64,000 nucleotides of DNA from Pseudomonas sp. NC02 (GTDB lineage: Bacteria > Pseudomonadota > Gammaproteobacteria > Pseudomonadales > Pseudomonadaceae). Below the pieces are notes generated by a model. That model saw only the letters and a program-made list of their open reading frames with translations, searched no databases and was not told the origin of the DNA. Positions 23,608 to 61,822 of this stretch are shown here, piece after piece; position 1 is the first letter of the stretch, and every line of letters starts with the position of its first letter. Both the position numbers and the translations under genes were made by a program. The DNA lies in assembly GCF_002874965.1 (NCBI RefSeq), contig NZ_CP025624.1, positions 3,348,001-3,412,000 of the forward strand, given 5' to 3'.

Positions 23608-23646
23608 ATGTGCCCCCCAAGCTCGCTCACCACAGGACACCGTGAA

Positions 23647-23892: not shown

Positions 23893-24014
23893 GACCTGCC
23901 GCAAACGCCATCCGCCAACCCCGGACGCAGCCCTAGCCACACCCCCTCGTTTCCCACCGCGCCAGACCGTGGCGGAGACGATTCCTTCAACCATGATTCG
24001 AGGGGAACTACCCA

Positions 24015-25421: not shown

Positions 25422-25433
25422 GGGAGCGTGTTC

Positions 25434-28301: not shown

Positions 28302-28340
28302 AACAACGCGGCGGTATAACTTCCCGTCACACGGTCCGGA

Positions 28341-29732: not shown

Positions 29733-29797
29733 GGGATGTCCTTCGAGGCTGGGCCTTTGGCGCAGAGGGCCAGTGTTGGGCTGCGCGATGGCTATGA

Positions 29798-29810
29798 TTT
29801 TTGTTGTTGT
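29798..29810 (-). promoter_or_regulatory. CA-rich Hfq/Crc-type motif in the GntP leader
   Basis: Minus-strand ACAACAACAAAAA, 66 bases before the GntP start, fits the AAnAAnAA pattern of catabolite-repression Hfq/Crc sites in Pseudomonas. A GC-rich hairpin (GGGTCGCGC...GCGCGGCCC, about 29811-29833) immediately precedes it. Confidence 0.45.
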
Positions 29811-29852
29811 CGGGCCGCGCACGTGGCGCGACCCGTTGTAGCCAAGCTGTTT

Positions 29853-35355: not shown

Positions 35356-35544
35356 ATGAAGCTGATTCAGTGCCGTTTCTCTTCTGGTCAGCGTGTACCG
35401 ATGCTCGTGCAAGCTGGTAATGCGGCTCCGTTGCCCAAACTCGTTCCGTTCATCTACGTCCAACTCAAACTCAGGCACCGCGCTTACAATACGGCTGCAG
35501 CGCATCTGCGAGCGATCCAGGCTTTCTATAGCTGTAGCTACTGA
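35356..35544 (+). pseudogene. N-terminal remnant of a tyrosine integrase beside dif
   Basis: About 62 residues beginning MKLIQCRFSSGQRVPMLVQAG and containing YVQLKLRHRAYNTAAAHLRAIQAFY, which looks like the N-terminal core-binding (SAM-like) domain of Pseudomonas site-specific integrases. It then ends at a TGA with no catalytic domain. It begins 131 bases from dif. It is probably the scar of an element once integrated near the terminus. Similarity is judged by eye, so this is tentative. Confidence 0.4.
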
Positions 35545-35582
35545 CTGGAAGCTACCGCTGTGCCCTATCGGCAGCTAGTGCA

Positions 35583-38500
35583 CTACCAATGATAACCAAG
35601 CCCCAACGTAAGTCCGAAATCTCCCTGCGCGGTGCCCGCACCTGTCGCGCGATAGGTCCACTTCCCACCCCTGGAGCGCGCCGTCAACCCGATGGCCAAA
35701 GCGGGCTCACCCTCGTACACAGCCGTTGCCATTGCCACCATCGACTTGCCCGGCGAGGACGCAACCGGTAACCCGGCGGTGGCCATCACCGCCGCAATAC
35801 CGGCGTACACGTCCTGCCGCAGGCTGCCGACGCGGCGGTCGGTATAGTCGTTGGCCTCCGTTAGCGACCGATTGGCGGCTTGGTTCGAAAGCCGAGTTGC
35901 CTGGCGGAAATTGACAGCGTCCGTGCCTTGCACAGCCTCGGCTGCATGGCTGATCTGACGCTCGGCGCCATACGCACCGACTGCCACGCTACTGGCACGT
36001 GTGGCTTGGGACCCCGCCCCCAGCGCCACGCTATTTTTCGCGTTGGCGCCTGCTTGCGAACCCAGCGCAGTACTCTGTTTCGCCTGAGCAGTGGCACCAG
36101 CACCGGTGGCGACACTGCGCTCGCCTTCGGCCTGAGTCTGCACCCCGATCGCAACCGATTGGCTATCCGGACGCGTGGATACGTTGTCGCCGGCTTCGCT
36201 CGCATCCACGGCAATGCCGGAAGACTGCTGGCCCAATTGCCTGGCCTGCTGATTCACTGCCTCCAGTTGGCGCCCGTTGACGGCGTCGAGGCTGGTGGAA
36301 CTGACCTCGCCGTCATCAACGCCACCCACCGTGCGCGAGCCTTGGCTGCCACTGATGTCGACCTGGGCCCCATCAGCAATGCCGGCCAACTGTATGTCAC
36401 GACTGACCGGATCCTGGCGGACATGCCCCACCTCACCGCTGTCCATTTGTTTGCGCAGTGTCTCGGCTTGCGCATTGATGGCATTCGATTGGTCGTCGGT
36501 AGCCACCATACGGTCATCGAGTAGACCGAATGCCTGCCCGATGGAGTCGACCTTGATCAACTGAGCCTCGGCACCGTTCTGGCCAGACTGCGTCACTGCA
36601 TAGGTGGAAGGGCTCGTCGAACCGTCGGCGTTCACGTTCGCGCCGCCGCCCATGGCGGTAGCCAGGAACTGGTCATGTGCTTTAGCGGAGACCTGGATGT
36701 GCCCGAGAACCGTTTCGCCTTGGGCGATACCTTGCAGCCTGGCGGCTGACTGGTCCGCGACCTGGCCGGCAAGAGTTGCACTGGCGTGCGCTGCGCTGGC
36801 GCCATCACGGGCAGTAGCAGCAGCGGATTGTGCGGCCTCGGCACTGCCCCTGGCCGCCTCCGCGCGGCTCTGTGCAATGGCAGCGACGCCTGTCGCACCG
36901 ACGGCTACGCTTTGCGCCTGGTCAGCCATGGTTTTCCCAGCCAGGGCAACACCCTGAGCTGCCACCGCCGCGCGATCAACGTCATCCAACTGACCCTTGT
37001 TCACCGCATCAGCCTGTGCGCTACCGGAAGCCAACCGGGCGATGCGGGCCGGCTCGCTGGCTGAACCGCGGCCTGCGTTGTAGACCCCGTCGATACCACT
37101 CCACTGCAACGTGTCATCGCGCAGGCCCTGGATGTTATCCACCAGCGCGTCCAGCTCAGTGGCCTGGGTACGCACGGCATCGTTGAGCGTGGAGAGATTG
37201 CCCGCCACCGCGTGCAGCGCCTCACCTGCATTGTCGTGGCTGGTTGCAGGCTGAGCACTGCCAGCGGCTGCGATCAGGGGGATGTTATAGCCAGGTGCCG
37301 TAGGCTGGCCTTCAGCGTCCACGGTAGCGCCACCTCCGAGCAGCCGAGTGATGGTCTCGCGACCCACGCCCGCAGCGGCTTTTACCGCCGAGTCCAGGCG
37401 CTCTACCACCGTTTGCCCGCCGTCCAGGCCGCCGAGCTGAATCGCAGCCACATCAGCGGTGGACCGGGCGGCGTTGGCAGTGCCCTGGGCATTATCGGCC
37501 GTTCGCTGAGCGACCGACGCGACGCTTAACGCCGTGCCGGCTGTCGTTTGTGCTGCAGCGGCTCGATGACTTGCCTGCGTCGCTACGCCTTGCGCCTGGT
37601 CGGCGTCGGACTGCGCTACGACGGCGACACTCATCGCATCGATGCTGGCGCTGTTCGCTTGCTGTGCTGTGGTGTGGGCCGTGTCGGCCGAACGCTGTGC
37701 CGTGTTTGCCGCATCCAGAGACGCATTGGCGCGGCTCTGGGCAGTCAGGGCCTTCTGATTGACCTGCGAGGCGCTCAGCAACGCATGGTCGGCGGCGCTC
37801 TGCGCGGTCTGCGCAGCCGTCTGAGCGGTGGATGCCGCACCCAACGCAGCTTCAGCGTTGGCTTGAGTCTCCAGCACGGCATGCTGTGTGCCGGACGCCG
37901 CGTCGGAAGCGGTGTCGGCACGGCTTTGAGCCGCCTGCGCAGAAGCATGCGCGACGGTGGCGAGGCTCAGCGCCCGGCTGGCGGTAGTGTCGGCAGCGCT
38001 GGCTGCTTCTCGTGCTGTCGACGCGACGCCCAATGCGGTATCGGCGCTGTTGCGTGCGGCCATGGCAGTGATATTCGCACTGGCAGCCGAGCCCTGCGCA
38101 GCGCCTGCAGTGTTTTGCGCGGCATCCGCAGACCGCTGCGCCTGCAAGGCTGAAGACAACGCGAGGTCGGCAGTGCCTTGGGCCCCGTCGGTGATGGCCT
38201 GAGCGTTTTCCAGCGCACCCAACGCGCTGTCTGCACCACGCTGGGCGACATCGGCCAGGTCTTGAGCAGAAGCGGCGGTTTCGTGAGCGTTTTTTGCGGT
38301 CCCTTGGGCATTCTGCGCATCGGTTTGCGCTGTGACGGCCGCTGCACCTGCCGTGTCAGCTGTTTGCCGGGCGGTGGCTGCCGTTGTCTGGGCGGCGGTC
38401 GCCGCGTTCAGTGCGGCGTTGGCTGAAACCTGCGCCGAGTCGACCGCACTGAGTGCGCCCGCAGCCGTGTCCTGAGCTCTGTCAGCCATGTCCTTGGCGA

Positions 38501-40727
38501 CCTTACCGGCAGCCTGGGCGGTCGACGCGAGCCCCGCAGCCCGATCGGCGATTTCACGAGCGGTAGCCGCTGCATCCTGTACCGCGTTCGCCGCGTTCAG
38601 GGTCTGGCCGGCAGTGGCTTGCGCGGTTTCAGCGGCCACGTCGGCCTCCCTGCCCACAAGCAAGGCCGCATCCGCAGCGCGCTGTGCACCATCGGCCCTC
38701 TCCTGTGCACTTGAAGCCGCAGTGGCAGCCTGGTCCGTCCGGTCTTGTGCATCCGCTACAGCAGCCTGCGCCGAAGTGACCGCATCCGAGACGGCATCAG
38801 CCGAGCGCAGGGCAGCTGTCGCGGCAGTTGCAGCCTTGTCCACGACATCTCCCACTTCCTTGACACGGGTTTGCGCCGCGCTGGCCAGAGCCTGCGCCGT
38901 CGTAGCGCTGGCGTGTGCCTGCGTGGCGGCGCCTTGGGCGGTCTGGGCCGAATGCTGAGCGCTTGCGGCAGCAACGTCGGCACGCTCAGCTACCGCTTGC
39001 GCGTTGGCGGCGGTCGTACCGGCCTTGCTGGCGGCGCTTGCCGCCGCGCTGGCGCTGCCCTGGGCTTGATTGGCGGCGGCAAGGGCACCCGCTGCCTCCT
39101 GGGAGGCATTGTTGGCCTGTGCCAACGATGAGTCGGCGGCATCCTTTGCCGCCAACGACACCTGATGAGCCTTGTCCACAGCAGCAGTGGCGGTGCCGGC
39201 CGCCTGTTGTGCACGCAAGGCACTGCTTTCAACGCTGTCCAACTGACCTTTGTTGACAGCATCCGTTACCGCCACGCCGGCAGCCATATTGATAATCGAC
39301 GTGGGCACGCCAGCGTCCCTGTCGGCGTCATACGCACCCGTCTGGGGGTTCCAGTAGAACCTCCTGGTCGCCCTCAACACCTGGGATTTTTCCGAGATAT
39401 CCATGACGGAATCGAACACTTCACCCATGCGGTCATCAGTGACGTTGTGCGCTTTGTCCAAGGCCGACAGAGCCCCCAGCAGCGTGGTGGGCGACGGTGT
39501 TTCCGGGGCAAGGCTGGTCAGTACAAGTGGTATCGGTACTATCCGATTGCCCTGGGCGAGCGGGCCGGTTCCCAAGGCCTGTGCCATCGATTCACCGGCC
39601 GTGGTCTCACGTGTTCCAAGACGGCGGATCGCCTCATATCCCGAGAACAACTGGGCACCGTTAATGGCATCGGTACTTGTGGCGTTCACCGCCCCTGGAG
39701 CTACAAAAATCCATTGGCGCAATCGCGCCGCACTGCCGCCGCTGACCGTGCCGACCGCGCTGTTGCGCTCGAAGGAGTAGACGCGTCCATTGAGGGTCAC
39801 GGGCGTAACTTCGCGCAGATCGTCAGTGGCCGAGAAGCTGCCGAGCGCGACACTCGCCCTCTGGGGGGCCTGGGCGCTGTAACCAAGTGCCAGGCTTTCC
39901 AAGTTCGATGCGCTCGCGTTCCTGCCGATCGCTACCGAGTTGTCCCCTCGTGATACTGCGAATCGCCCGCCGGCGAACGAACTCGCACCGCCCGCCTGCG
40001 CGCTCGCGCCGAGTGTAGTGGCATACTCACCTGAAGCAGTGGATGCCGAACCGAATGCAGTACTGAATGTATTGGAGGCCGTAGCGGTATTCCCGAACGA
40101 CAGTGCATAGGGGTTCCGGGCCCTGGCGGTAAGACCTAAGGCCATGGTCCAGGCGGCTGTACTCTGGGCACCGCGGCCGAAGGCAAAGCCGTTATCAGTG
40201 GCAAGCGGGGCGCCAACCTCAATGCCGGAATGGCCAATCGCGATGCTGCCGTTGACACCTCCCAACATCAGCCGCCCACCGTTGATATACAGCTCCCCGC
40301 CCAAGGAAAGCGAGGTTGCACCAACACCCGGTGTTCCTAACGGCCGATAGAACATCACGCTCTCGGTTTGGCCATCCTTGGCGTTCGAGTCACACTGCCC
40401 CGACTGACCATCCTTGAAATTCAAGTTTTCGTTCAAATAGGCTCTGTCGGCCCCGGTGCCTGCAGTATAAGTATTTTGGGGGTCATTGAGACTGACGCAT
40501 TCGCCGCTGTCATTCGCATTGATGTGTACACCGTTGCCTGCACGGGCATCAGACACGCCCAGCAGCGCCGAAACCCCGGTAAGGGTCAGCAGGCCGAGAG
40601 TCGGCCAACCGGGTGATGTGACCGCAAACTCGGGGCAGTAGAAGCCGCGAATGAGGGAGCGAAGTGAGTTGAGAGGAACAGCATGCGGACAAGCGACCTG
40701 CGAATCGAAACGCAATGTGACTTTCAC
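35583..40727 (-). CDS. Giant trimeric autotransporter adhesin (YadA-like), copy 1
   Basis: 1714 residues from GTG 40727 (CAGGTAAG upstream). An extended N-terminus of about 64 residues includes a signal peptide ending DARA. A head of YadA-like left-handed repeats follows (ALGLTARARNPYALSFGN, AIGRNASASNLESLALG) with neck motifs (DAINGAQLFSGYEAI, AVTDAVNKGQLDSV). Residues about 500-1095 are some 28 copies of a 21-residue alanine-rich heptad repeat (AQxxADxALxxAxxAQxxAxx), a predicted trimeric coiled coil. A second head/neck region precedes the C-terminal YadA anchor ending LTLGLGYHW. It should mediate adhesion or aggregation. It is a close paralogue of the next gene, and an RcsB-box-like site lies 150 bases upstream. 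Confidence 0.93.
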   Translation of the reverse strand: MKVTLRFDSQVACPHAVPLNSLRSLIRGFYCPEFAVTSPGWPTLGLLTLTGVSALLGVSDARAGNGVHINANDSGECVSLNDPQNTYTAGTGADRAYLNENLNFKDGQSGQCDSNAKDGQTESVMFYRPLGTPGVGATSLSLGGELYINGGRLMLGGVNGSIAIGHSGIEVGAPLATDNGFAFGRGAQSTAAWTMALGLTARARNPYALSFGNTATASNTFSTAFGSASTASGEYATTLGASAQAGGASSFAGGRFAVSRGDNSVAIGRNASASNLESLALGYSAQAPQRASVALGSFSATDDLREVTPVTLNGRVYSFERNSAVGTVSGGSAARLRQWIFVAPGAVNATSTDAINGAQLFSGYEAIRRLGTRETTAGESMAQALGTGPLAQGNRIVPIPLVLTSLAPETPSPTTLLGALSALDKAHNVTDDRMGEVFDSVMDISEKSQVLRATRRFYWNPQTGAYDADRDAGVPTSIINMAAGVAVTDAVNKGQLDSVESSALRAQQAAGTATAAVDKAHQVSLAAKDAADSSLAQANNASQEAAGALAAANQAQGSASAAASAASKAGTTAANAQAVAERADVAAASAQHSAQTAQGAATQAHASATTAQALASAAQTRVKEVGDVVDKAATAATAALRSADAVSDAVTSAQAAVADAQDRTDQAATAASSAQERADGAQRAADAALLVGREADVAAETAQATAGQTLNAANAVQDAAATAREIADRAAGLASTAQAAGKVAKDMADRAQDTAAGALSAVDSAQVSANAALNAATAAQTTAATARQTADTAGAAAVTAQTDAQNAQGTAKNAHETAASAQDLADVAQRGADSALGALENAQAITDGAQGTADLALSSALQAQRSADAAQNTAGAAQGSAASANITAMAARNSADTALGVASTAREAASAADTTASRALSLATVAHASAQAAQSRADTASDAASGTQHAVLETQANAEAALGAASTAQTAAQTAQSAADHALLSASQVNQKALTAQSRANASLDAANTAQRSADTAHTTAQQANSASIDAMSVAVVAQSDADQAQGVATQASHRAAAAQTTAGTALSVASVAQRTADNAQGTANAARSTADVAAIQLGGLDGGQTVVERLDSAVKAAAGVGRETITRLLGGGATVDAEGQPTAPGYNIPLIAAAGSAQPATSHDNAGEALHAVAGNLSTLNDAVRTQATELDALVDNIQGLRDDTLQWSGIDGVYNAGRGSASEPARIARLASGSAQADAVNKGQLDDVDRAAVAAQGVALAGKTMADQAQSVAVGATGVAAIAQSRAEAARGSAEAAQSAAATARDGASAAHASATLAGQVADQSAARLQGIAQGETVLGHIQVSAKAHDQFLATAMGGGANVNADGSTSPSTYAVTQSGQNGAEAQLIKVDSIGQAFGLLDDRMVATDDQSNAINAQAETLRKQMDSGEVGHVRQDPVSRDIQLAGIADGAQVDISGSQGSRTVGGVDDGEVSSTSLDAVNGRQLEAVNQQARQLGQQSSGIAVDASEAGDNVSTRPDSQSVAIGVQTQAEGERSVATGAGATAQAKQSTALGSQAGANAKNSVALGAGSQATRASSVAVGAYGAERQISHAAEAVQGTDAVNFRQATRLSNQAANRSLTEANDYTDRRVGSLRQDVYAGIAAVMATAGLPVASSPGKSMVAMATAVYEGEPALAIGLTARSRGGKWTYRATGAGTAQGDFGLTLGLGYHW
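37440..39225 (-). repeat. Block of about 28 tandem 63-bp repeats inside adhesin 1
   Basis: Same 21-residue unit as in adhesin 2 but more diverged, for example AQSRADTASDAASGTQHAV. Both blocks occupy residues about 500-1095 of their proteins, flanked by identical neck types (NKGQL...VES before, GLDGGQTVVERLD after). Confidence 0.8.
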
Positions 40728-40877
40728 GATGACTTACCTGAGACATTGACGGATGCGTCGAACCGAAACAAGGCACCACGGCAATCCGATGGCTGAGACG
40801 GGTTCCACGAGTGGTAGCCGCTACGACAGCGGGCAATGATTACTGAGGGTTATTGTGGACAGTGAGGCTGGTGGAGA

Positions 40878-40897
40878 ACATCGGACTGCTCCTAAAT
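40878..40897 (-). promoter_or_regulatory. RcsB-box-like element before adhesin 1
   Basis: Minus strand ATTTAGGAGCAGTCCGATGT. Eighteen of twenty bases match the element before adhesin 2, in the same orientation relative to its gene, 150 bases before the start codon. Confidence 0.65.
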
Positions 40898-40930
40898 CGG
40901 CAGGGAGGGTCAGACCCTCGACCTGCCGAT
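40896..40930 (-). terminator. Terminator-like hairpin after adhesin 2
   Basis: ATCGGCAGG...CCTGCCGAT, 9-bp outer stem, enclosing GAGGGTC-A-GACCCTC. It lies nine bases after the stop of adhesin 2 and directly abuts the regulatory element of adhesin 1, so the two adhesin genes have separate transcripts. Confidence 0.7.
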
Positions 40931-40938
40931 ATCAGGAC

Positions 40939-43900
40939 CTACCATTCGTAACCCACGCCAACCGCCAGCCCGACACTTCCTTGGGCACTGCCCGAACCAT
41001 TGGCCTTGTACGCCCAACGACCATCCTCGGTGCGCCCCGAGAGGCCGACGGCCAAGGCTGATTGCCCCTCGTAGACCGACGTTCCCATGGCCACCATGCT
41101 CCTGCCCGGTGTCGACGCCACAGGTAAGGCTGCCATGGCCATCGCTGACGCGATGCCGGCGTAGGCATCCTGACGCACTGCACTGATCTGGCTGTCGGTA
41201 TAGGCATTGGCCTGTCGTAGGGTACGGTCAGCGGCCTGGTTGGAGATCTGCGTGGCCTGGCCGAGATTGACGACATCGGTCGCCTCGCTGGCGGCTGCTA
41301 CGTTGGTGATTTGCCGCTCCGCACCCGGCGCACCCACTGAGACGGTATTCGCCCGCTGGGCCTGGGAGCCGGCGCCAAGCGCGACGCTGCTCGGCGCATC
41401 GGCCTTGGCACCAGCCCCCAGTGCAGTGCTGCGAGGCGCTTGGGCCACAGCACCTGCCCCCACCGCAACGCTGCGCTCACTGCCGGCCTGGGCGTTGGCC
41501 CCGATAGCCACGGCCTTGCTACCCGGCGACACCGTTGCCTTTTCATTGCCTTGGGTGTCAACGGCGATGCCGGAGGCTCGTTGCATCAACTGCTTGACCT
41601 GCCGGTCGACGGCGTGGAGTTGTCGGCCATTGACGACATCGGTGCTGTCGACGCTCAAGGCACCCTCCTTCACACCCGTCAGAACACGAGGTCCCTGCGT
41701 ACCCGTGAGATCGACACGAACGCCGTCAGTGTCCCGCGCCACCTGGATGTTCCGGTTGAGGGAGTCCTGGCGAACCAGGCCGACCTGTCCGTTGTTCACC
41801 TGCTCGCGCAAGCTGGCCATGTTCGCTGTGGCCTTGTCGGCCTTGCCGTTGACTGCATTCAGCGACGCGTCGAGTGTTTCGATAGCCTGCCCGACGTTGC
41901 CGGCCTGGACCTGGCCAACGGGGCCACCCTCAGAGTCGATCCGGGTCACAGCGTAGGCCGGTGCTTTCAACGAACCATCCGCGTTGACGGCAGCGCCACC
42001 GCCCAGCGCATCAGCCAATGCCTGTCGGCCTGCGTGGTTCGCTGACTGTATGCGATCAAGCACGGTTTCACCCTCCTCCAGCCCCTGCAATTGTGCTGCT
42101 GCGCGCTCCGCCACCTGGCCAACCTGACTAGCGAAAGTGTGAGCAGCGTTTGCGGCCTCACGTGCGTCAGCAGCAGTGCCGCCAGCGGTATCGGCAGCAT
42201 ATTGCGCGGCATCAGCGGCGGTCTGGGCGAAGGCAGCAGCATCCATCGCGCCATCCGCCGTCCCCTGGGCCCGAACCGCTGCCGCCCGGGCTGCGTCAGC
42301 GGCGCTGCCGGCCTGCGATGCGGTGGTCGCGACGGTATCGAGTTGCCCCTTGTTGACGGCATCGCTTGGTGCAACACCGGCCGCCAGGTTACCGATGCGT
42401 GCCGGCTCATTGCGATCCGCGCCACGACCCGCGGTATAAGCGCCGCTGGCCTCGTCCCACACAACGCTATCGTCACGCAGGGCCCGGACGCCCTCACCCA
42501 ACGCGCCGAGTGCTGCGCCCTGGCGGTTCACGGCGGCGTTGACCGTGCCGACATTGTGGTCCAAAGCCGTTAGGGCAGCGCCCACGTTGTCATGGAGTTG
42601 AGGAGCGGGCTGGATGCTGCCATCGGCATTGATCTGATTGATGGCATAGGCCGGCGCCGTCGGCTGGCCATCGCTACCCACGATGGAACCTCCTCCCAGA
42701 GCCTTCGCAACGAACTCACTGGCTACACCTGCGGCGCTTCGGATAGCCGCGTCAATGCGCTGGACAACCGTCTGGCCGTCGTCTAGGCCCTTGAGCTGGC
42801 CGGTGGCGATATCGGCGGTGGCCTTGGCCGCATCAGCGGTGTGTTGGGCGGCGACCGCCCCTTTCTGGGCATTGCTTGCGGCGTCCAAAGCGTTGTCGGC
42901 GCTGGCCTGTGACGTTGTCGCGGCCTGCAGAGCATCGTTTGCCGAGCGACCAGCGGCGTCCGCCGTGCTCTGGGCCTTGTCCGCCACATTGCGTGCAGAC
43001 GTGGCCGAAGCCAGGGCGGTATCGGCGGAGCTCTGCGCGGTTTCAGCGGTTTTCTGCGCGCCGGAAGCCGAGCTCAATGCCGTGTCAGCCGTGCCTTGGG
43101 CAGCATCTGCGGCGTGCTGTGCCCGGGCCGCCGAAGCCAATGCGCCGTCAGCGGTACCCTGGGCGTTACCGGCCGCGCTTTGAGCGCTGGCTGCAGCGAT
43201 CAGCGCTTCATCGGCCGTGCCTTGGGCCTTCTCGACCGCCTGATGCGCCGTGGAGGCCGTGCTCAGTGCCTGGTCTGCGGTGGATTTGGCGGCGTCGGCC
43301 GTGCGCTGTGCCGTGGAGGCAGCACCAAGGGCGGTATCCGCCGTGCCTTGCGCGGCATTTGCGGCCTGTTGTGCACCAGCCGCCGAACTGACGGCGGCAT
43401 CCGCGCGATCCTGAGCCGATTGAGCGGCAGTCTGCGCCCCTGTCGCCGTTGCCAATGCCGAATCCGCCACGCTTTGGGCCGCGTTGGCGGATTGCCCGGC
43501 ACCCTCGGAGGCGCTGAGCGCCTGATTGGCTGTAAGCTGCGCGGCATCGGCGCTTTTCTGCACCACGGCGGCCTTGTCCAGCGCCGTATTAGCGGTGCCT
43601 TGGGCCACGTCGGCAGCCTTGTGAGAGCTGGCGGCTGCAGCCAAGGCGGCATCGGCGGAGCCCTGGGCGGCCGTAGCGGTTTCGCCGGCCCGAACAGCCG
43701 TGTCCAACGCCTTATCGGCAGAGCCCTGCGCAGCATTCGCGGCTTGTTGGGCGCTGGAGGCCGTGATCAGCGCGGTATCGGCAGTGCCTTGGGCTGTCGC
43801 GGCGCTTTTTTGCGCTTCAGACGCCGTACTCAGTGCTGTGGTGGCTGCCCCTTGTGCGGCTTCGGCCGTCTTCTGGGCAGTGGCTGCCGAGCCCAGGGCC

Positions 43901-46077
43901 GTGTTGGCGACACCCTGTGCGGTTTCGGCCGTCTGTTGTGCAGTCGCAACGGCCCCTTGCGCCCGTTCGGCGATTCCCCGGGCGGATTCGGCAGTTTTTT
44001 GGGCGTCAGTTGCGGAGTCCAGCGCGGTACTGGCCGTCCCTTGCGCCACACCTGCGCTCTTTTCGGCGCTGTCGGCCTTGGCCAAAGCGGCATCGGCAGC
44101 AGCTCGCACATCGTCCGCAGTCTTACGGGCATCATCTGCGCCGGCCAACGCCGAGCTCGCCTTGCCTTCTGCGGTCTCTGCAGTTCGCTGCGCCGTCGTT
44201 GCAGAATTCGCCGCCACGTCCGCAGCCGCCTGTGCGGCCTGAGCCAGTTGCTGCGCGCCGCTTGCCGACCCCAGTGCCGAGCTGGCGGTGGCTTGGGCAG
44301 CATCAGCTGTCGCCTGCGCGGTTGATGCCACCCCCATCGCGGCAGTGGCAGAACCTTGCGCGGCTTCTGCAGCTTTCTGTGCGGTTTCGGCCGAGCTAGA
44401 GGCGTCCTTGGCGGTGCTCTGCGCACTATCTGCCGTTGCCCGTGCTCCCGCCGCCGTTTGGAGGGCTGCGTCGGCACCCTCTTGCGCCGCGCTTGCCGTT
44501 TTGCGGGCATCGTCAGCGGTGGCCATCGCTGCGTTGGCACCGGACAGCGCGCTGGCAGCAAGGCTGTTCGCGTTATTGGCCATACTTTCCACTGCGTTCA
44601 ACTGGCCCTTGTTCACCGCGTCGGTAGCAGCCACACCTGCGGCTACATTGGCAATTCGGCTCTCAGGGCGGGCGTCTTCGCTGGCCGTGTAGGCCTGCTG
44701 GTCCTCGCTCCATCGCAGGTATTTCTCAGCCATCGCCAAACGAACTTGCCCTGCCGTTGCGTTGGCCAGTTGATCAACATCATTCAAGGCTTCCTGCGTA
44801 CCTTTATGGGCCTGATCCAGGGCCTTGATCGCCCCCACCACCGATGTGGGCTGTGCCACGCCAGTACCCAGGCTGGTCAGGGAAAAGGCCGGCAGCACCA
44901 CCTTGCCGTCCTTGACCGCAGTACCCTCACCGAGGGCATCCGCCACCGACTGAGTGGCCGCCAACTCCCGATCCCCGAGCTTCTGGATCGCATCGTAGGC
45001 AACGAATAACTGGGCGCCATTGACGCCATCGGTGCTGGTGTTGCTTACCGCTCCGGGGGCCATGTTGATCAGTTGGCGAGTCTGGCTGGCATTACCCAGG
45101 CTGACCACGCCCATGGCCGACGTACTATCGACACTGTATGCAGTGCCATTGATCGTCACCGGCGCAACCGCCTTCAGGTTTTGCGTCGTTGAGCCACTGC
45201 CCAGTGCAACGCCGTAATTGTGTTGCGCGCTGGCCTTGTTGCCCAAGGCAACCCCTTCATTACTGCTGGCCGTCACGCTGGCCTCAGAGCCCACCGCAAC
45301 GCTGTGGGTGCCGTCAGCCCTGGCGTCGCGACTCGCGGCAAAAGCCCCGCCGCCACTGGCCGATGCACCGGCGCCCACAGCCGTGGCCCGTTCTCCCGCC
45401 GCCGTCGTATTTGCGCCGATAGCCGTGGCGTACTGATTCGAGGCCTGGGCGTTATAACCAAATGCGTGGGCATAGTCAGCCAGGGACTTGGCCTGGAACC
45501 CCGCCGCCATGCCCCAGCGGCCGAGGCCTTGGGCCCCATGACCAATGGCAGCCCCGTCGGCGTTGGCTTGAGTGCTCTCGTTACCAATCGCCATATTGCC
45601 GCCGGGCTGCCCGAGGATAACCCGGCCGCTGTTGACGAACAGTTCGCCACCCAGGGTCAGAGAGGTCGCCCCTACGCCAGAAACGCCCCCTGGACGGTAA
45701 AACAGTACCGAATCGGTCTGCGAACCTTTAGTCGCGGAATTGCACTTGCCCCCGGCCTGATCCTTGAAGATCAGGTTTTGCGCAAGATACGTCGCGGCAT
45801 TGCCATCGTTGTTCTGCGGGTCATTCAAACTTACGCACTGGCCGTCCGCATTCGCGTTGATGTGCACACCATTGCCGGCATGGGCAGTTGCACTCAGCAA
45901 TGCCGTTATGCCGGTCAGGGTCATCACCCCCCATATCGCCCAATCCAGTTGACGGTGTCGGGACTGACAAGCATCAGGCGCATGACAATAACGCATGCGA
46001 ACCCCGTGGCGAATTGGATTAAGCGGGGCTGATCGCAGGAACGCAAACGGCAAGACTGAACGCGACGTGACTTTCAC
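40939..46077 (-). CDS. Giant trimeric autotransporter adhesin (YadA-like), copy 2
   Basis: 1712 residues from GTG 46077 (AGGGTGAG upstream). Same plan as copy 1: long signal region ending ATAHA; YadA head repeats (AIGANTTAAGERATAVGAG, VALGNKASAQHNYGVALGS); necks (STDGVNGAQLFVAYDAI); about 28 tandem 21-residue alanine-rich repeats at residues about 500-1095 (AQGTADTALGSAATAQKTAEA type); second neck/head block (VAIGANAQAGSERSVAVG...EATDVVNLGQATQIS); anchor ending VGLAVGVGYEW. Tandem duplication has produced two equal-length adhesins. The repeats lack internal stops or frameshifts, so the gene is under selection. An RcsB-box-like site is 174 bases upstream, shared with the divergent EAL gene's promoter region. 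Confidence 0.94.
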   Translation of the reverse strand: MKVTSRSVLPFAFLRSAPLNPIRHGVRMRYCHAPDACQSRHRQLDWAIWGVMTLTGITALLSATAHAGNGVHINANADGQCVSLNDPQNNDGNAATYLAQNLIFKDQAGGKCNSATKGSQTDSVLFYRPGGVSGVGATSLTLGGELFVNSGRVILGQPGGNMAIGNESTQANADGAAIGHGAQGLGRWGMAAGFQAKSLADYAHAFGYNAQASNQYATAIGANTTAAGERATAVGAGASASGGGAFAASRDARADGTHSVAVGSEASVTASSNEGVALGNKASAQHNYGVALGSGSTTQNLKAVAPVTINGTAYSVDSTSAMGVVSLGNASQTRQLINMAPGAVSNTSTDGVNGAQLFVAYDAIQKLGDRELAATQSVADALGEGTAVKDGKVVLPAFSLTSLGTGVAQPTSVVGAIKALDQAHKGTQEALNDVDQLANATAGQVRLAMAEKYLRWSEDQQAYTASEDARPESRIANVAAGVAATDAVNKGQLNAVESMANNANSLAASALSGANAAMATADDARKTASAAQEGADAALQTAAGARATADSAQSTAKDASSSAETAQKAAEAAQGSATAAMGVASTAQATADAAQATASSALGSASGAQQLAQAAQAAADVAANSATTAQRTAETAEGKASSALAGADDARKTADDVRAAADAALAKADSAEKSAGVAQGTASTALDSATDAQKTAESARGIAERAQGAVATAQQTAETAQGVANTALGSAATAQKTAEAAQGAATTALSTASEAQKSAATAQGTADTALITASSAQQAANAAQGSADKALDTAVRAGETATAAQGSADAALAAAASSHKAADVAQGTANTALDKAAVVQKSADAAQLTANQALSASEGAGQSANAAQSVADSALATATGAQTAAQSAQDRADAAVSSAAGAQQAANAAQGTADTALGAASTAQRTADAAKSTADQALSTASTAHQAVEKAQGTADEALIAAASAQSAAGNAQGTADGALASAARAQHAADAAQGTADTALSSASGAQKTAETAQSSADTALASATSARNVADKAQSTADAAGRSANDALQAATTSQASADNALDAASNAQKGAVAAQHTADAAKATADIATGQLKGLDDGQTVVQRIDAAIRSAAGVASEFVAKALGGGSIVGSDGQPTAPAYAINQINADGSIQPAPQLHDNVGAALTALDHNVGTVNAAVNRQGAALGALGEGVRALRDDSVVWDEASGAYTAGRGADRNEPARIGNLAAGVAPSDAVNKGQLDTVATTASQAGSAADAARAAAVRAQGTADGAMDAAAFAQTAADAAQYAADTAGGTAADAREAANAAHTFASQVGQVAERAAAQLQGLEEGETVLDRIQSANHAGRQALADALGGGAAVNADGSLKAPAYAVTRIDSEGGPVGQVQAGNVGQAIETLDASLNAVNGKADKATANMASLREQVNNGQVGLVRQDSLNRNIQVARDTDGVRVDLTGTQGPRVLTGVKEGALSVDSTDVVNGRQLHAVDRQVKQLMQRASGIAVDTQGNEKATVSPGSKAVAIGANAQAGSERSVAVGAGAVAQAPRSTALGAGAKADAPSSVALGAGSQAQRANTVSVGAPGAERQITNVAAASEATDVVNLGQATQISNQAADRTLRQANAYTDSQISAVRQDAYAGIASAMAMAALPVASTPGRSMVAMGTSVYEGQSALAVGLSGRTEDGRWAYKANGSGSAQGSVGLAVGVGYEW
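42795..44575 (-). repeat. Block of about 28 tandem 63-bp repeats inside adhesin 2
   Basis: The DNA encodes repeated units of three heptads (AQGTADTALxxAxxAQxxAxx), one per 63 bases. A paralogous block of nearly the same length lies in adhesin 1 at about 37440-39225. Such blocks expand and contract by recombination. Confidence 0.85.
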
Positions 46078-46392
46078 AATAACTCACCCTGTAGCACACA
46101 CATCGTCAGGTATGAGGCCTCACGAAGTGGCATTGAAGCGCAGAAGCAACAGCTGTTGGCGACAGCGTGCGTGCACTCGTTCTGTAATGCCCGCACATGC
46201 TGCGAGCCGCCATGAATCGGGGGGAATTCTGTCGAGCGCTCGCCAATGCCGATATCGGACTGCTCTTAAATTTCGGATCAGCACAAGCCGGGACCCAGAC
46301 AGGGTCCAGCCGCGATTTAGTCCCAGTCTTATATTTCTCTCACATTGCCTTTGCTCAAATGTGACCTCACCACAACCACCGAGCATCAGCTG
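46078..46392. promoter_or_regulatory. Divergent control region between adhesin 2 and the EAL gene
   Basis: 315 bases without a gene. It carries the RcsB-box-like element at 46252-46271 and the long adhesin leader. The EAL frame is open from a TTG at 46345, but the start is more likely the ATG at 46393. A second sequence, TTTAGTCCCAGTCTTATAT (46315-46333), loosely resembles the box. Confidence 0.5.
46252..46271 (-). promoter_or_regulatory. RcsB-box-like element before adhesin 2
   Basis: Minus strand ATTTAAGAGCAGTCCGATAT. Its core TAAGA-N4-TCYGA resembles the enteric RcsB box (consensus KMRGAWTMWYCTGNA). Near-identical copies stand before adhesin 1 and before the small gene at 51043. Confidence 0.65.
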
Positions 46393-47697
46393 ATGGCAGC
46401 CCAAGTCATCGTTCCCTCCGAGCGCGCCCTGCAAAGCCTGGTCATCCTGGCCAGTGACGAGCAGTACGCCCACCGCGTAGCCACGCTGCTCAACGGGAGC
46501 CCCCTTTTTCATATCGAACACATAGATTCGTTGAGCGAGTTGATGACCCGCCTGCGCAAGCAACCTGTCGACATCATCGTCGCGCAGGTTCATGCCGACC
46601 ATGTCGACAGCTTGATGTTGCCGTGCTGTGTCAGCGACCTGAATGCTTCCGGGCTGCTACACAGCATTCCGCATATAGTCTGGACCGCACAGCCACAATC
46701 CGAGCATGCGCTCCCCCCCGGCTTACTGACCGCAGGCCTTGAGCAGGGCTGGACGCACACTCTCAATGGCGTCTCGACGGCAGCGCTGGCTTCCCATGCG
46801 CGCCTGGCCAGGGCTTCAGGTATCCGGGTAGAGATCGCGGTGGAGCAACAACCCGAGAAACTCTTGGCAGTGATCAGTCAATTGGCGCATACCGCCCATC
46901 CGGCACCGCGCAGTCCACATGAGGAAAAACTGGAGCAACTGCTCAATGACGATGAGGTGGTGGCGGCCCTCGCCACCGGCGAAGGATTAAGAGTGGTCTA
47001 CCAGCCCCAATATGACCTGGCGACACGAGAGATCGTCGGCGCGGAAGCCCTGATCCGCTGGCACCATCCACGGCATGGGGATGTGCCACCCTCGGTCCTG
47101 ATCCCGATGATCAACCAGCTCGGGCTGGATCTGTTGTTGTTCAGCTTTATCGAGAAGACTGTGATCGACACCCTGGGCAAGTTAAACCGTGGAGGCATTG
47201 ATATCCCCATCGCCATCAACGCTTCGGCACGCACGCTCTGCGCCCATGGCCTGGCCACGAGACTTGCGCAAAAGATGCATCGGGCGGGGTTGCCTTGCAA
47301 ACGCCTCAAGATCGAGCTGACCGAAGACTTGGCGCCCGACAGCGAGCTGGCCCTTTCAGCCTCGATCACTGCTTTGCGCGCCAAAGGCTTTCCGGTGTCC
47401 CTGGACGACTTCGGTGCCGGCGCCGCGACGTTGTCCTTGCTGTCACGCATGCCATTCGACGAGATGAAGATTGACGGAGCCCTGGTGCGTGCGGTGGGCC
47501 AGTTTGCCCACTCTTCAGAAATCATCTCGGGGATCGTCGCTCTGGCGCAGTTGTTCAATATCAACTTGATCACCGAAGGTATTGAAGATACCGAGAGCAT
47601 CGAGTTGCTGAGCAGGCTGGGCTGCAACACCGGGCAGGGTTTCGCTCTGGCCCGGCCCATGGAGAGCGATGTATTCCTGAGCATGATCACCGCCTAG
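46393..47697 (+). CDS. EAL-domain c-di-GMP phosphodiesterase with degenerate receiver-like N-terminus
   Basis: 434 residues from ATG 46393. The first 170 residues (LQSLVILASDEQYAHRVATLLNG...) look like a receiver fold whose phospho-acceptor Asp is not obvious. The C-terminal EAL domain (about 195-434) keeps the catalytic set: VGAEALIRWHHPRHG, NASARTL, ELTED, SLDDFGAGAATLSLL, MKIDGALV, EGIEDTESIELLSRLGC and GQGFALARPM, so it should hydrolyse c-di-GMP. The organisation resembles PvrR, which works with the Rcs system at the cupD locus of P. aeruginosa. It is followed 150 bases later by an RcsB-like gene and is divergent from adhesin 2, suggesting that it antagonises adhesin-dependent attachment. 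Confidence 0.88.
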   Translation: MAAQVIVPSERALQSLVILASDEQYAHRVATLLNGSPLFHIEHIDSLSELMTRLRKQPVDIIVAQVHADHVDSLMLPCCVSDLNASGLLHSIPHIVWTAQPQSEHALPPGLLTAGLEQGWTHTLNGVSTAALASHARLARASGIRVEIAVEQQPEKLLAVISQLAHTAHPAPRSPHEEKLEQLLNDDEVVAALATGEGLRVVYQPQYDLATREIVGAEALIRWHHPRHGDVPPSVLIPMINQLGLDLLLFSFIEKTVIDTLGKLNRGGIDIPIAINASARTLCAHGLATRLAQKMHRAGLPCKRLKIELTEDLAPDSELALSASITALRAKGFPVSLDDFGAGAATLSLLSRMPFDEMKIDGALVRAVGQFAHSSEIISGIVALAQLFNINLITEGIEDTESIELLSRLGCNTGQGFALARPMESDVFLSMITA

Positions 47698-47856
47698 GGA
47701 TGCGCTTACGTCCATTGTTCCTGCAAACATTGCCTCGCGTGTGCTGAAACAATCACGGCGGGGTTAAACGGTATCTTCACCCCTGCTGGAGCCGAATTGA
47801 GAGATGGTCTTTAATCAATTAATTATCCGGCTACTTTCGAGTGTCCATTGGCATCC

Positions 47857-48516
47857 ATGAAAACCATACGCATAGCGATCCTTGATGATCATGCAGTGGT
47901 ACGCCACGGCCTTGTCAGCCACCTCGCCGAAGAGTTATCCATCGAGATTGTTGGCGTCTATGAAACCAGTCGCGAACTGATACGCGGCATGGCGACGATG
48001 CCCGCCAACGTCTTGCTGCTGGACTTTGCTCTGGGACGGGATGAACTCGACGGCGTATCCCTGATTCGCGCCTTGCGAAGCCGCTTCCCTGACTGTCGTA
48101 TTCTGGTGCTATCAAGCCATCATGAGTCGGCTACCGTCTCGCTTGCCTTGCGTGTAGGAGCGCGCGGTTTTGTAGGCAAAGATGAGGGACTGGGAAGCCT
48201 GGTGAAGGCGATTCGTACCGTTGCTTCGGGCGCCATTTACTTGAGTGCCGATATGTCTTACCAAGTGGCCGATGCGGCCAGGCCAGACGAATCGACACAA
48301 ATATCGATCAGTGATAACGCCTTGCAGCGCGCGGCCTTGTCGGCGCGGGAGCAGGAAGTGATCCGCTGCTATCTGGAAGGCATGACCGTGACGGAGATCG
48401 CCGAGAAATTCAATCGCAGCATCAAGACCATCAGTACGCAGAAGGCCACCGCTTTTCGCAAGCTTGGGGTCACCTCTAACAACGGCTTGTTCAAGATCAT
48501 GAAAACCCTGGACTAG
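47857..48516 (+). CDS. RcsB-like response regulator (NarL/LuxR class)
   Basis: 219 residues from ATG 47857 (a TTG three codons earlier is also open). Receiver domain with acidic pocket LDDH, phospho-acceptor Asp in VLLLDFALGRDELDGVSLI, Ser in ILVLSSHHESA and Lys in FVGKDEG; the C-terminal HTH has LSAREQEVIRCYLEGMTVTEIAEKF then NRSIKTISTQKATAFRKLGV. The recognition region NRSIKTIS-QK is nearly that of enteric RcsB. It ends three bases before the hybrid-kinase gene, so they form an operon. Its likely targets are the three RcsB-box-like elements in this locus. Confidence 0.9.
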   Translation: MKTIRIAILDDHAVVRHGLVSHLAEELSIEIVGVYETSRELIRGMATMPANVLLLDFALGRDELDGVSLIRALRSRFPDCRILVLSSHHESATVSLALRVGARGFVGKDEGLGSLVKAIRTVASGAIYLSADMSYQVADAARPDESTQISISDNALQRAALSAREQEVIRCYLEGMTVTEIAEKFNRSIKTISTQKATAFRKLGVTSNNGLFKIMKTLD

Positions 48517-48518
48517 AC

Positions 48519-50936
48519 ATGATGACGAGGAACCGCGTTCGTTGGGGCACCAGCCTGTGCCTGTTGATGGCCGCAACATGGGCTAACGCCGGCGCGCGGC
48601 CTCCCGGACCTGATTTAAGCGTCGAGGAAAGAGTCTGGATCGAACATCATCCGGTATTGCGTGTCGCCGTAGTGGGCAGTCTTTCTCCAATCGAATACGT
48701 GGAGAACGGCCGCCTCAAGGGGCTGTCAGCTGAATATTTGCAGCTGATTGCTCACAAGACCGGCATGAAGATCGACTACGTTTCCGCTCACTCGATCCAG
48801 GATCGCATAGAGCTGCTGATGACCGGTAAGGCAGACCTTATCTCCACTGTCAGGCTTAATGGGCCCGGAGGTAAAAATCCCCGGTTGCTGCTGACTTCAG
48901 CCTATTTGAATACCACCACGGTCATCATCACCCGCATCGGGCGCGCGCCTCTTTTCGAGGCCGAACAGCTGGACCGGTTGACCGTGACCTTGCCCTACTT
49001 CGACCGCTACAGTGATTTCCTTGCAACGAAGGCACCCGGGGCGAAACTGATCATAGGTGGCAGCGCCCTGACGATGCTGCAGCAAGTTGCCGAAGGGACC
49101 GCTGATGCTGCAGTGGCCACCGAAGCCTATCTGCTGCCGTTCCTCTATCGACAGTTCCAGGGCCAATTGCAGATTTCCGGGGTGCTCACCGGCATGGCGT
49201 CGCAAATTGCCATGGGCACTCGGAAAACCGAGCCTTTACTGCACTCAATCATCCAGAAGACGCTCGACTCGGTCACCCCTGACGAAGTTCGCGTCCTGCA
49301 CGCCAATTGGCTGCGCGAGCATGCCACCCCGGACCTGCCACTCAGAGAAGTTGTGTCCCACTACCCTCATGAGATCGCGTTAATTGTCCTAGTGGTAGTG
49401 CTATTGCTCATCACGATTTACCAAACCCAGCGCATGCGCCAGCGCGCCGAGCGCAACGAGCGGGAAAAGGCGATGTTCCTGGCAGTCATGAGCCATGAAA
49501 TCCGCTCGCCGATGAACGCAGTGGTGGCTGCAGTCGAACTGTTGCGCAATACGCCGCTGGACAAGCAGCAACAGCACTTTGCCGACCTGGCCAATCACGG
49601 CGCGCAATCATTGTTGAGGCTGCTCAATGACGTGCTGGATATATCCAAGCTCGATGCGGGGCAGGTCAAGCTCGAATACGAGCCGGTGAGCATCAGCACC
49701 CTGGTGCATAACGTCGTTGATCTGCATCGCTTGCGGGCCCGGGAGAAGCATTTATCGATCTGCGTCAATGGCGAATCCCACCTGCCACTGTTGATGCTCG
49801 ACAGCACACGTATTGGGCAGGTGCTGCACAACCTGCTGTCCAATGCCATCAAGTTCACCGAAATCGGCGGAGTGGAAGTTACCTATGCGATCAGTGACCT
49901 GGCTTCGTCGCGCAACAAGGAGCTGCGATTGACCGTCACCGATACCGGGATCGGCCTGAGCCAGGAAAGCCAGGCGCGCCTTTTCCAGCCTTACAGCCAA
50001 GCAGCACAATCCTATAAGCGCTCAGGTGGCACCGGCCTGGGGCTAGTCATCTGTCGCGACCTGCTCAAACTAATGGGCGGCACCCTCACACTGGACAGTT
50101 CGCCGGGCAAGGGAACGCGTGTTGAATTGTCATTGACCGCGGAGTTGGCACCGCCCGACTCGACAGAGGCCGAAACCGTGCTCCCCGCCACGAACTGGTC
50201 AGCGACATCCGCACCAAAGGCATTGCGCATTCTGGTTGTGGAGGACACCGTCGCCAACCAAGCGGTATTGCAGGCACAGATCGAGGGGTTCGGCTGCACA
50301 CCGGTGATCGCCAGGGACGGCGCCCAGGCCGTGGATTGCTTCGAACAAGGCACATATGACCTGATCTTGATGGACTGTGACCTACCGGACCAGGACGGCT
50401 ATTCGCTGACGCGCCTGTTCCGCATGATCGAACAGGATGCCGCGCAAACGCGCTGCCCCATCATTGCGATCTCCGCCTCTACGGGCAACCAGCATGTCGC
50501 CCGATGCTTTGATGCCGGCATGGATGGCATCCTCAGCAAGCCGATCAGCCTTGGCAAGTTGCAGGATGCAATCGAGTTATGGTGCGGCGTGACCCTGACT
50601 TTACTGCCACACCCCTTCGCCCTACGGCAACCTGTGGGTCACCAGCAGATCCTTGAAGCATTGGAACGGGACCTACTGGCGCTACTTGAAGGGATGGTTC
50701 TGCGCAACCTGGAACCGGCCCTCCACGCAGCCCACCGTCTACACGGCGCAGCACTCAGTATCGAATGGCCAGATGTGGCCCGCCAAGCGGGACAGCTGGA
50801 GGCCCTTCTCAGGACTGCCACGCCATGGAGCGACCCAACCTGCGCCACGACCTTACAGGCACTGCTTCATGGGTTTCGCTCCACGAGCTTCAGCCATCCC
50901 GTTTTCGACCCGCCCGTCCCTCCCGCGGCAGATTGA
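48519..50936 (+). CDS. BvgS/RcsC-like hybrid sensor kinase with periplasmic binding domain and HPt
   Basis: 805 residues. Signal/anchor at 10-25; periplasmic solute-binding (SBP_bac_3, Venus-flytrap) domain about 35-270; transmembrane helix about 287-306 (IALIVLVVVLLLITIY); HisKA with the phospho-His in FLAVMSHEIRSPMNAV (about 325-340); HATPase with LSNAIKFTE, DTGIGLS and GGTGLGLVI; receiver about 567-685 with ILVVEDT and LILMDCDLPDQDG; and a C-terminal HPt around AAHRLHGAALSIEW. All phosphorelay residues are present. It should pass phosphate His-Asp-His to the RcsB-like regulator encoded just upstream. Its ligand is a small periplasmic solute, not identified. Confidence 0.92.
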   Translation: MMTRNRVRWGTSLCLLMAATWANAGARPPGPDLSVEERVWIEHHPVLRVAVVGSLSPIEYVENGRLKGLSAEYLQLIAHKTGMKIDYVSAHSIQDRIELLMTGKADLISTVRLNGPGGKNPRLLLTSAYLNTTTVIITRIGRAPLFEAEQLDRLTVTLPYFDRYSDFLATKAPGAKLIIGGSALTMLQQVAEGTADAAVATEAYLLPFLYRQFQGQLQISGVLTGMASQIAMGTRKTEPLLHSIIQKTLDSVTPDEVRVLHANWLREHATPDLPLREVVSHYPHEIALIVLVVVLLLITIYQTQRMRQRAERNEREKAMFLAVMSHEIRSPMNAVVAAVELLRNTPLDKQQQHFADLANHGAQSLLRLLNDVLDISKLDAGQVKLEYEPVSISTLVHNVVDLHRLRAREKHLSICVNGESHLPLLMLDSTRIGQVLHNLLSNAIKFTEIGGVEVTYAISDLASSRNKELRLTVTDTGIGLSQESQARLFQPYSQAAQSYKRSGGTGLGLVICRDLLKLMGGTLTLDSSPGKGTRVELSLTAELAPPDSTEAETVLPATNWSATSAPKALRILVVEDTVANQAVLQAQIEGFGCTPVIARDGAQAVDCFEQGTYDLILMDCDLPDQDGYSLTRLFRMIEQDAAQTRCPIIAISASTGNQHVARCFDAGMDGILSKPISLGKLQDAIELWCGVTLTLLPHPFALRQPVGHQQILEALERDLLALLEGMVLRNLEPALHAAHRLHGAALSIEWPDVARQAGQLEALLRTATPWSDPTCATTLQALLHGFRSTSFSHPVFDPPVPPAAD

Positions 50937-50950
50937 GATTCGGGTCTGTG

Positions 50951-50970
50951 AATTAAGAGCAGTCTGATGT
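50951..50970 (+). promoter_or_regulatory. RcsB-box-like element before the small helical gene
   Basis: Plus strand AATTAAGAGCAGTCTGATGT, matching 17 of 20 bases of the adhesin 2 element and in the same orientation relative to the downstream gene, 72 bases before its start codon and 14 bases after the kinase stop. Confidence 0.65.
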
Positions 50971-51042
50971 GATTCACCGCCCTGCCCCCCTGAAAATCGG
51001 TCTTGTCAGCTAAAGACTAACTCAACCGCTCCCAAGGTTTGA

Positions 51043-51264
51043 ATGATGGATCCTTTGCACGAGATTCAAAAACGGCAACTAAGGCTGATAGAGTCAGCCT
51101 CCGTTAACGAAGCCTGCGCCGTTGACTTGCTGAGTCTATTGCGCAAGTTGACCGCGGCCGAAGCCAGTAATGTCCTAAATATCGTCACGCTGCTGCAAAG
51201 CGAGGCGGAATTTTTGCGCGAACTTTCAAAGGAAATGGCCACGCGAGAATATGAGGCACTGTGA
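51043..51264 (+). CDS. Small helical protein of unknown function (73 aa), stop codon supplied by an IS
   Basis: Starts ATG 51043 with AAGG six bases upstream. The whole chain is predicted helical and charged (MMDPLHEIQKRQLRLIESAS, LLSLLRKLTAAEASNVLNIV, EFLRELSKEMATREYEAL), with no signal peptide or membrane segment. I do not recognise the family. It lies downstream of the hybrid kinase and has its own RcsB-box-like element, so it is probably a regulated output or modulator of the phosphorelay. The IS3 element begins at 51260, inside its last codon. Removing the element would give a CGT TAG ending, so only the last residue is changed. Confidence 0.65.
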   Translation: MMDPLHEIQKRQLRLIESASVNEACAVDLLSLLRKLTAAEASNVLNIVTLLQSEAEFLRELSKEMATREYEAL

Positions 51265-54635: not shown

Positions 54636-54650
54636 GGCACAGCTCGCTTA

Positions 54651-58580: not shown

Positions 58581-58624
58581 AAACTCAACTCCTTTTCCAA
58601 AAACACTGAAGGCTCACTTATGCA

Positions 58625-58655
58625 GGGTTGTGCGTCGACGCCAGGGTTTTTATAG
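58625..58655 (-). promoter_or_regulatory. 31-bp shared promoter/leader element (copy A)
   Basis: Minus strand CTATAAAAACCC then 11 bases then CACAACCC, ending 44 bases before the yejA start. Upstream, CTAACCGGTGCT resembles the CTAACGG box before copy B. Confidence 0.5.
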
Positions 58656-58691
58656 AGCACCGGTTAGACCGTTAGCGCATGTGCTTATGCG

Positions 58692-61631: not shown

Positions 61632-61664
61632 GGTTGAGGTTCCCATCATTGATATGCCGTTGAT

Positions 61665-61805: not shown

Positions 61806-61822
61806 GGCTGGGAAAATTATTT

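Follow-up and report, generated by a model that had tools for sequence, protein, structure and literature searches.

A candidate attachment switch in Pseudomonas sp. NC02 that joins trimeric autotransporter adhesins to an RcsB-like phosphorelay and an EAL protein

In the RocS1-RocA1-RocR system of Pseudomonas aeruginosa, which is linked to cupB and cupC, the response regulator RocR interacts with the sensor. The BvgASR/fhaB locus of Bordetella places an adhesin gene near genes for a LuxR-type regulator, a Venus-flytrap kinase with an HPt domain and an EAL-domain protein. For P. aeruginosa PA14, two reports state that RcsB activates cupD and raises pvrR, that a site at about -75 of cupD1 is needed for transcription, that dispersal on RcsB induction requires PvrR, which functions without its receiver Asp, and that RcsB alters a number of core-genome genes (PMC2696094, PMC3842833); the first of these also states the phosphodiesterase activity of RocR (PMC2696094). 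In Burkholderia cenocepacia, the account of BCAM0218-BCAM0228 describes three trimeric autotransporter adhesins (TAAs), two kinases and three regulators, and proposes a two-component cascade for these TAAs (PMC3404963).

The locus described here belongs to Pseudomonas sp. NC02 and lies within a stretch of 64 kb (the window), to which all coordinates refer unless another locus is named. Its six open reading frames (ORFs) fall in 35583-51264, with the adhesin genes on the minus strand and, divergent from them, the EAL gene, the regulator-kinase pair and the small gene on the plus strand:

35583-40727, minus strand: TAA1, a 1714-aa trimeric autotransporter adhesin with YadA head, stalk and anchor (Pfam)
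40939-46077, minus strand: TAA2, a 1712-aa trimeric autotransporter adhesin with stalk and anchor over cut-off (Pfam)
46393-47697, plus strand (listed ORF from 46345): REC-EAL protein of RocR-like architecture (Pfam EAL, fold match)
47857-48516, plus strand (ATG 47857; listed ORF from 47848): RcsB-like response regulator, REC plus LuxR-type HTH (Response_reg and GerE)
48519-50936, plus strand: BvgS-like unorthodox kinase (SBP_bac_3, HisKA, HATPase_c, Response_reg and Hpt)
51043-51264, plus strand: 73-aa protein without a family, a predicted helical hairpin (helices 4-34 and 38-72)
51264 to about 52490: element of IS3 type immediately after the small gene, transposase with rve domain

An earlier reading made from the letters of the DNA alone (the sequence-only reading) had proposed that two adhesins, an EAL protein, a regulator, a kinase and a small protein are contiguous, and all of these ORFs and their domains could be confirmed. 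The locus quite probably works as a self-contained switch for attachment and forms the TAA variant of a cassette that in related loci comes with other adhesins.

The two giant proteins fit TAAs by their YadA anchor, stalk and head. YadA_anchor scored 46.3 and 50.9 bits in TAA1 and TAA2 (cut-off 22.7) and YadA_stalk was over its cut-off in both, with YadA_head over cut-off in TAA1 only and just under it in TAA2, at 24.6 (cut-off 25). Both genes start with GTG, preceded by a Shine-Dalgarno-like AGGTAAG in TAA1 and GGGTGAG in TAA2. On the opposite strand, only two bases separate the regulator ORF (47848-48516) from that of the kinase. Among models of named regulators, the regulator scored best with RcsB (114.6 bits; EvgA, 71.2 bits), and since this is under the RcsB equivalog cut-off of 235, the protein is RcsB-like rather than RcsB itself. 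RcsB chains were also its best matches in the PDB (100 bits), and the residues NRSIKTIS-QK, common to both in the alignment, give it an RcsB-like recognition helix. The kinase displays the architecture of the BvgS family with a single periplasmic Venus-flytrap domain, and no PAS domain was matched in Pfam. The flytrap domain was closest in the PDB to BvgS (131 bits), with EvgS at 67.5 bits. This sensor had been thought to set the TAA version apart, which can no longer be maintained, as both kinases of the fimbrial locus L011 likewise carry SBP_bac_3 and Hpt.

For the EAL protein, ATG 46393 is the most likely start and is preferred over the TTG at 46345, since that codon comes before the predicted -10 hexamer (46355-46360). 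Its structure model (pLDDT 76) gave RocR as the best fold match over the full length, at a TM of about 0.5-0.6; the rmsd was high owing to a different placement of the two domains. The predicted receiver strand 61-65 ends at Gln65, the usual position of the phospho-Asp; in ten aligned rows this position is Gln in two and Glu in eight, and in the plasmid-borne relative L069 it is Asn. In the enzyme half, the EAL, Asn, ELTE, DDFG, Lys and Glu motifs aligned with solved phosphodiesterase domains. By these features, the protein appears to have a REC-EAL (RocR-like) architecture with a receiver that lacks the phospho-accepting Asp. The earlier description of an EAL phosphodiesterase with a receiver-like N-terminus stands in its domains and motifs, with the correction that the receiver has no phospho-Asp. 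The counterpart of PvrR that it had placed in the parts list was not borne out: the protein scored 164.2 bits on the PvrR model NF052596 against a cut-off of 580, leaving the N-terminus uncovered, and proteins in L076 and L077 reached 703.6 and 705.5 bits. Orthology with PvrR was rejected on this score; the regulators of L076-L078 are about 30% identical to that of the window.

A receiver of this kind cannot be that of a normal response regulator, and the EAL protein might on this ground be mainly a c-di-GMP-dependent sensor or trigger rather than a brake, with binding instead of enzyme activity controlling the adhesins. Since the motifs match those of solved phosphodiesterase domains, and RocR is a phosphodiesterase according to PMC2696094, a trigger of this sort is rather unlikely. 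On the preferred reading, in which the protein acts as a brake, the catalytic motifs would allow it to degrade c-di-GMP, and because its receiver lacks the phospho-Asp, its abundance rather than the kinase probably controls it.

The extent of the locus can be delimited by comparison with relatives. Pseudomonas aylmerensis (L054, L071) matches the window at 35534-51261, about 15.7 kb with 94-95% identity, and outside this interval no match of at least 200 bases to P. aylmerensis was found on either flank. The locus therefore behaves as one unit, in agreement with the sequence-only reading, with a shared block that ends at the outer genes and flanks that are unrelated. In L001 and L053, the match to the window likewise stops at the small gene (51256 and 51241, respectively), and their downstream flank is common to both (85%, 6.6 kb) and absent from the window. 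The stop codon of the small gene is where the IS3-type element begins, and the element appears to supply this codon; in close relatives the small protein has two more residues. Farther downstream, at 53055-62776, genes for oligopeptide-type ABC transporters, a TonB-dependent receptor and a FecR-like protein display no sign of module membership.

The promoter regions of the locus contain two types of box, each followed by a -10-like hexamer:

40880-40895, minus strand: RcsB-box-like element of TAA1, TTAGGAGCAGTCCGAT
40852-40857, minus strand: -10-like hexamer CACAAT of TAA1, 22 bp after the box
46254-46269, minus strand: RcsB-box-like element of TAA2, TTAAGAGCAGTCCGAT
46226-46231, minus strand: -10-like hexamer CAGAAT of TAA2, 22 bp after the box
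46316-46332, plus strand: second box type, TTTAGTCCCAGTCTTAT, before the EAL gene, the sole exact match to its pattern in the genome
46355-46360, plus strand: -10-like hexamer TCAAAT of the EAL gene
50953-50968, plus strand: RcsB-box-like element of the small gene, TTAAGAGCAGTCTGAT, with the -10-like TGAAAA at 50991-50996

When the adhesin-type sites are read as RcsB boxes after the E. coli consensus, their form is TAAGA-N4-TCC. With up to two mismatches, GGACTGCTCTTAA matched three times in the window against 0.72 expected, a number reached in 3 of 100 shuffles and weak when taken alone. Throughout the 6.89-Mb genome, TTWRGAGCANTCYNAT, a pattern derived from the window sites and relatives, matched three times, before TAA1, TAA2 and the small gene, with none for the reversed control. 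Because TTWRGAGCANTCYNAT was partly built from window sites, the stricter test is TTTMRGAGCACTCCTAT, which was taken from fimbrial relatives only; with up to two mismatches it matched twice in the genome, at TAA1 and TAA2, and its reversed control once. The pattern of the second box type, TTTAGTCCCANTCYTAT, has one exact match in the genome, at the EAL promoter, and one more with two mismatches, of which only the exact match counts since the reversed control outnumbers the pattern at up to two mismatches (four matches vs two). These whole-genome counts (TTWRGAGCANTCYNAT, TTTMRGAGCACTCCTAT and the exact match of TTTAGTCCCANTCYTAT) ruled out chance matching of the shared element, and the promoter element common to the module genes, proposed from the sequence alone, was upheld, all adhesin-type sites of the genome being in the locus.

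A matrix built from ten fimbrial boxes ranked the three boxes of the window first, second and third on both strands of the 64 kb, with scores of 18.4, 14.5 and 7.6, the last being that of the small gene. In 60 resampled windows the best score was at most 17.6, below the first box of the window. The small-gene box is not significant alone (null third-best mean 6.8, maximum 11.0); it is conserved in L001, L002 and L053, and a similar box stands 88 bases before the small-gene homologue in L073, L074 and L076, compared with 90 in the window. The EAL-type box was found exactly in 24 of the 69 loci compared, a set in which some genomes are represented twice and 30 entries are short TAA stretches unable to contain it. 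Among loci with TAAs and the regulator, the adhesin-type box is weaker in L008 (Variovorax; 14.1) and not clear in L017 (Mitsuaria; 7.7), and in L006 a palindromic box starts 149 bases before the ORF of a BapA-like adhesin. No adhesin-type box was found upstream of the window's regulator gene at up to three mismatches. In two fimbrial loci, one precedes the first regulator gene (L009, position 8989; L010, position 8990), which suggests that the regulator gene may be autoregulated there.

The distance between box and -10 hexamer was determined by scoring the hexamer at every offset after the box, using a matrix of -10 frequencies, in seven TAA sites, nine fimbrial sites (excluding the near-copies L010 and L016) and two small-gene sites. 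The best offset was 22 in all three sets. For five TAA sites, with the near-copies from L001 omitted, the observed score was reached at offset 22 in 0 of 5000 shuffles and at any offset in 7 of 5000. The box stands about 22 bp before a -10-like hexamer in eight of nine fimbrial promoters, L011 being the exception; the -10 fits better one base later at one L003 site, and the hexamers of the EAL promoters peak, less sharply, at offset 21. Such boxes would lie just upstream of or overlapping the -35, as expected for an activator.

The number of these sites also bears on how far the regulator may reach. Kinase and regulator could form a BvgAS-like global switch that controls many distant genes, the TAAs being merely the nearest targets, and this would suit the BvgS-like flytrap domain and the core-genome genes that PA14 RcsB alters. 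A regulon of this breadth is nevertheless unlikely, as the adhesin-type pattern has no match in the 6.89 Mb other than the three sites of the module and the second box type is exact only at the EAL promoter, both being counts that weaker sites would escape. In the self-contained attachment switch that we prefer, the BvgS-like kinase would read a periplasmic signal, perhaps the small solute proposed in the sequence-only reading, via its single Venus-flytrap domain and, judging from the domain order, phosphate would pass from His to Asp to the HPt His and on to the RcsB-like regulator. From the sites observed, their conservation and their spacing, we infer that the phosphorylated regulator would bind the RcsB-box-like elements directly upstream of the -35 and switch on TAA1, TAA2, the EAL gene and the small helical gene together. 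Adhesins and c-di-GMP brake would then rise together and so limit or time attachment, as reported for RcsB/PvrR of PA14.

The sequence-only reading had regarded the module as dedicated to TAAs, and its relatives contradict this. A scan of named genomes gave 22 loci, of which L001-L018 hold close relatives of the regulator and L019-L022 were dropped for their unrelated regulators. With a threshold of over 380 bits (next match 258), the regulator clade is found in 16 of 398 Pseudomonas genomes, and an adhesin cluster lies near the regulator in all 16: TAAs in three (G000, G161 and G359) and fimbriae in 13. The fimbriae are CS1-type in G151 (L005), a chaperone-usher cluster with the usher split over two ORFs in G397 (L007), and CupD-like in the remaining 11, the usher being recognized by ORF clustering with L009 (or as L009 itself) in seven and by tblastn in four. 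Outside this sample, TAAs occur in L001, L003, L004, L008 and L017, L013 has both CupD-like and CS1-type fimbriae, and in the further strain L006 a BapA-like giant adhesin is encoded beside the regulator. Besides TAAs, the clade thus accompanies fimbriae of the chaperone-usher and CS1 types and a BapA-like adhesin.

The independent occurrence of adhesins and regulators in relatives, which the sequence-only reading had named as a refutation, was seen in part. A TAA anchor at E < 1e-10 is present in 22 of the 398 genomes, 19 of them without an adjoining clade regulator (18 have none genome-wide at the threshold, and G110 has both at a distance of about 80 kb), and no TAA adjoins the regulator in 13 of the 16 clade genomes; misses are possible in these surveys because only the best first-look candidates were scored (in the own genome, the best 15 of 51 and the best 7 of 39). 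TAAs and regulator clade occur together in four of 398 genomes (P = 0.008) and are adjacent in three of the four. That the two are mostly apart in the sampled genomes, and that an IS3-type element abuts the locus, would fit a mobile block of adhesin genes that has come by chance to lie next to a regulatory one. Against such accidental neighbours stand the co-occurrence just given, the sharing of the block as a unit that ends at its outer genes, and the regulator-type boxes in the TAA and EAL promoters, which together make a chance arrangement highly improbable and favour the attachment switch.

Beyond Pseudomonas, a class-wide survey at E <= 1e-80 returned one of 274 genomes, that of the window itself, and in a plasmid search six records matched the regulator, with one close relative, from Janthinobacterium (L069). 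This J. lividum plasmid encodes, in the region 21242-30657, an EAL-regulator pair with box-like sites and a very large ORF, in which no family was over cut-off in the 1738 aa scanned and which could be another adhesin. On the Burkholderia ambifaria plasmid pBMC401 (L081), a regulator with 45% identity to that of the window lies in a region with cable-pilus and other fimbrial genes. In P. chlororaphis PCL1601, the EAL and regulator genes are present a second time (L018, about 9200-10617), in separate pieces and frames; this copy is apparently broken and was excluded from the adhesin count.

A maximum-likelihood tree was built from 31 regulators and two outgroups, excluding L018, L016, L065 and duplicate records. 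On this tree the TAA label needs three changes, two of which are forced by well-supported branches. L005, L006 and L007, with a CS1 fimbria, a BapA-like adhesin and an usher, are placed next to the TAA locus L003 (98/91), within a part of the tree that otherwise consists of TAA loci, and the loci with CupD-like fimbriae are grouped on a branch of their own (87/80). This pattern points to an adhesin output that was exchanged while the regulator was kept, on a tree whose root is uncertain, given the great length of the outgroup branches. With the same control set beside different adhesins in relatives, the attachment function looks like an exchangeable module plugged into a common switch, and as the cassette recurs near unrelated adhesin classes with similar promoter geometry, the control logic rather than the fibre type looks conserved.

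The 73-aa ORF looks like a real gene, given that its product has 13 homologues at E <= 0.01 (itself included) and that third codon positions account for 27 of the 42 bases in which it differs from L001. The predicted structure is a two-helix hairpin (pLDDT 82, pTM 0.44). No Pfam or NCBIfam family was found, the Pfam matches being at chance level (0.06 or worse), and there was neither a PDB sequence match nor a Foldseek match. A known connector of the YmgB/AriR type was rejected since no family or fold matched, a result that does not in itself prove the fold novel. The protein is present in 12 of the 398 Pseudomonas genomes, and four of its carriers belong to the window's regulator clade, including the fimbrial locus L066 (G330; 374-637). 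In L077 and L078 the small gene follows the usher, in loci that also have an EAL protein, a kinase and a regulator; L076 (PvrR, 704 bits) and L079 have fimbrial, kinase and EAL genes too; in L075 the small gene adjoins a set of EAL, regulator and kinase genes; in L080 it is flanked by a two-partner secretion pair and an autotransporter; and its position is more isolated in L073 and L074. A TAA-specific role was ruled out by L066 and the other fimbrial and two-partner loci, and the occurrence near fimbrial, two-partner and TAA loci links the protein to adhesin loci generally.

It could be speculated, though with somewhat less than even confidence, that this is a general attachment switch in which the adhesin (TAA, chaperone-usher, CS1-type or BapA-like) is exchanged and one RcsB-box promoter architecture is kept, the 73-aa hairpin belonging to a new connector or timer family through which adhesin expression is tied to the phosphorelay or to motility. 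The 22-bp promoter rule offers a testable means of finding regulated adhesins in Pseudomonas, and the locus points to an unstudied family of small proteins near adhesin loci.

Compared with the systems described above, the locus shares the three-part logic of RocS1-RocA1-RocR, and RocR is the best full-length fold match of its EAL protein, but its receiver is without the phospho-Asp and its output is TAAs. It resembles BvgASR/fhaB in the gene layout and in the flytrap domain, and differs in a regulator nearer to RcsB than to EvgA, a single flytrap and a predicted local regulon. The parallel to Rcs/Pvr-cupD with TAAs as output, drawn in the sequence-only reading, was borne out by the RcsB-like regulator, the unorthodox HPt kinase, the REC-EAL protein and the regulator-type boxes of the adhesin genes. 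In PvrSR/RcsCB-cupD of PA14, the adhesin genes are likewise opposite in direction, with a regulator site at the adhesin promoter, and the regulator also raises the phosphodiesterase gene (reported for PA14, presumed for the window), whereas the output of the window is TAAs and PA14 has two kinases instead of one. The PvrR receiver is reported as non-degenerate, and the window's EAL protein has a degenerate receiver and is below cut-off on the PvrR model; the loci with PvrR by model score are L076 and L077. BCAM0218-BCAM0228 similarly groups TAAs with kinases and regulators, but the available text lists no EAL gene and gives no shared promoter box, and 'c-di-GMP' is absent from its main text (PMC3404963). 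Among the literature matches listed, none announces a TAA module of this type. A two-component cascade for a TAA cluster has already been proposed, and the regulatory logic is that of Rcs/Pvr and Roc; as far as these matches extend, the combination of TAAs with an EAL arm is new, as are the promoter geometry common to different adhesins and the small-protein family.
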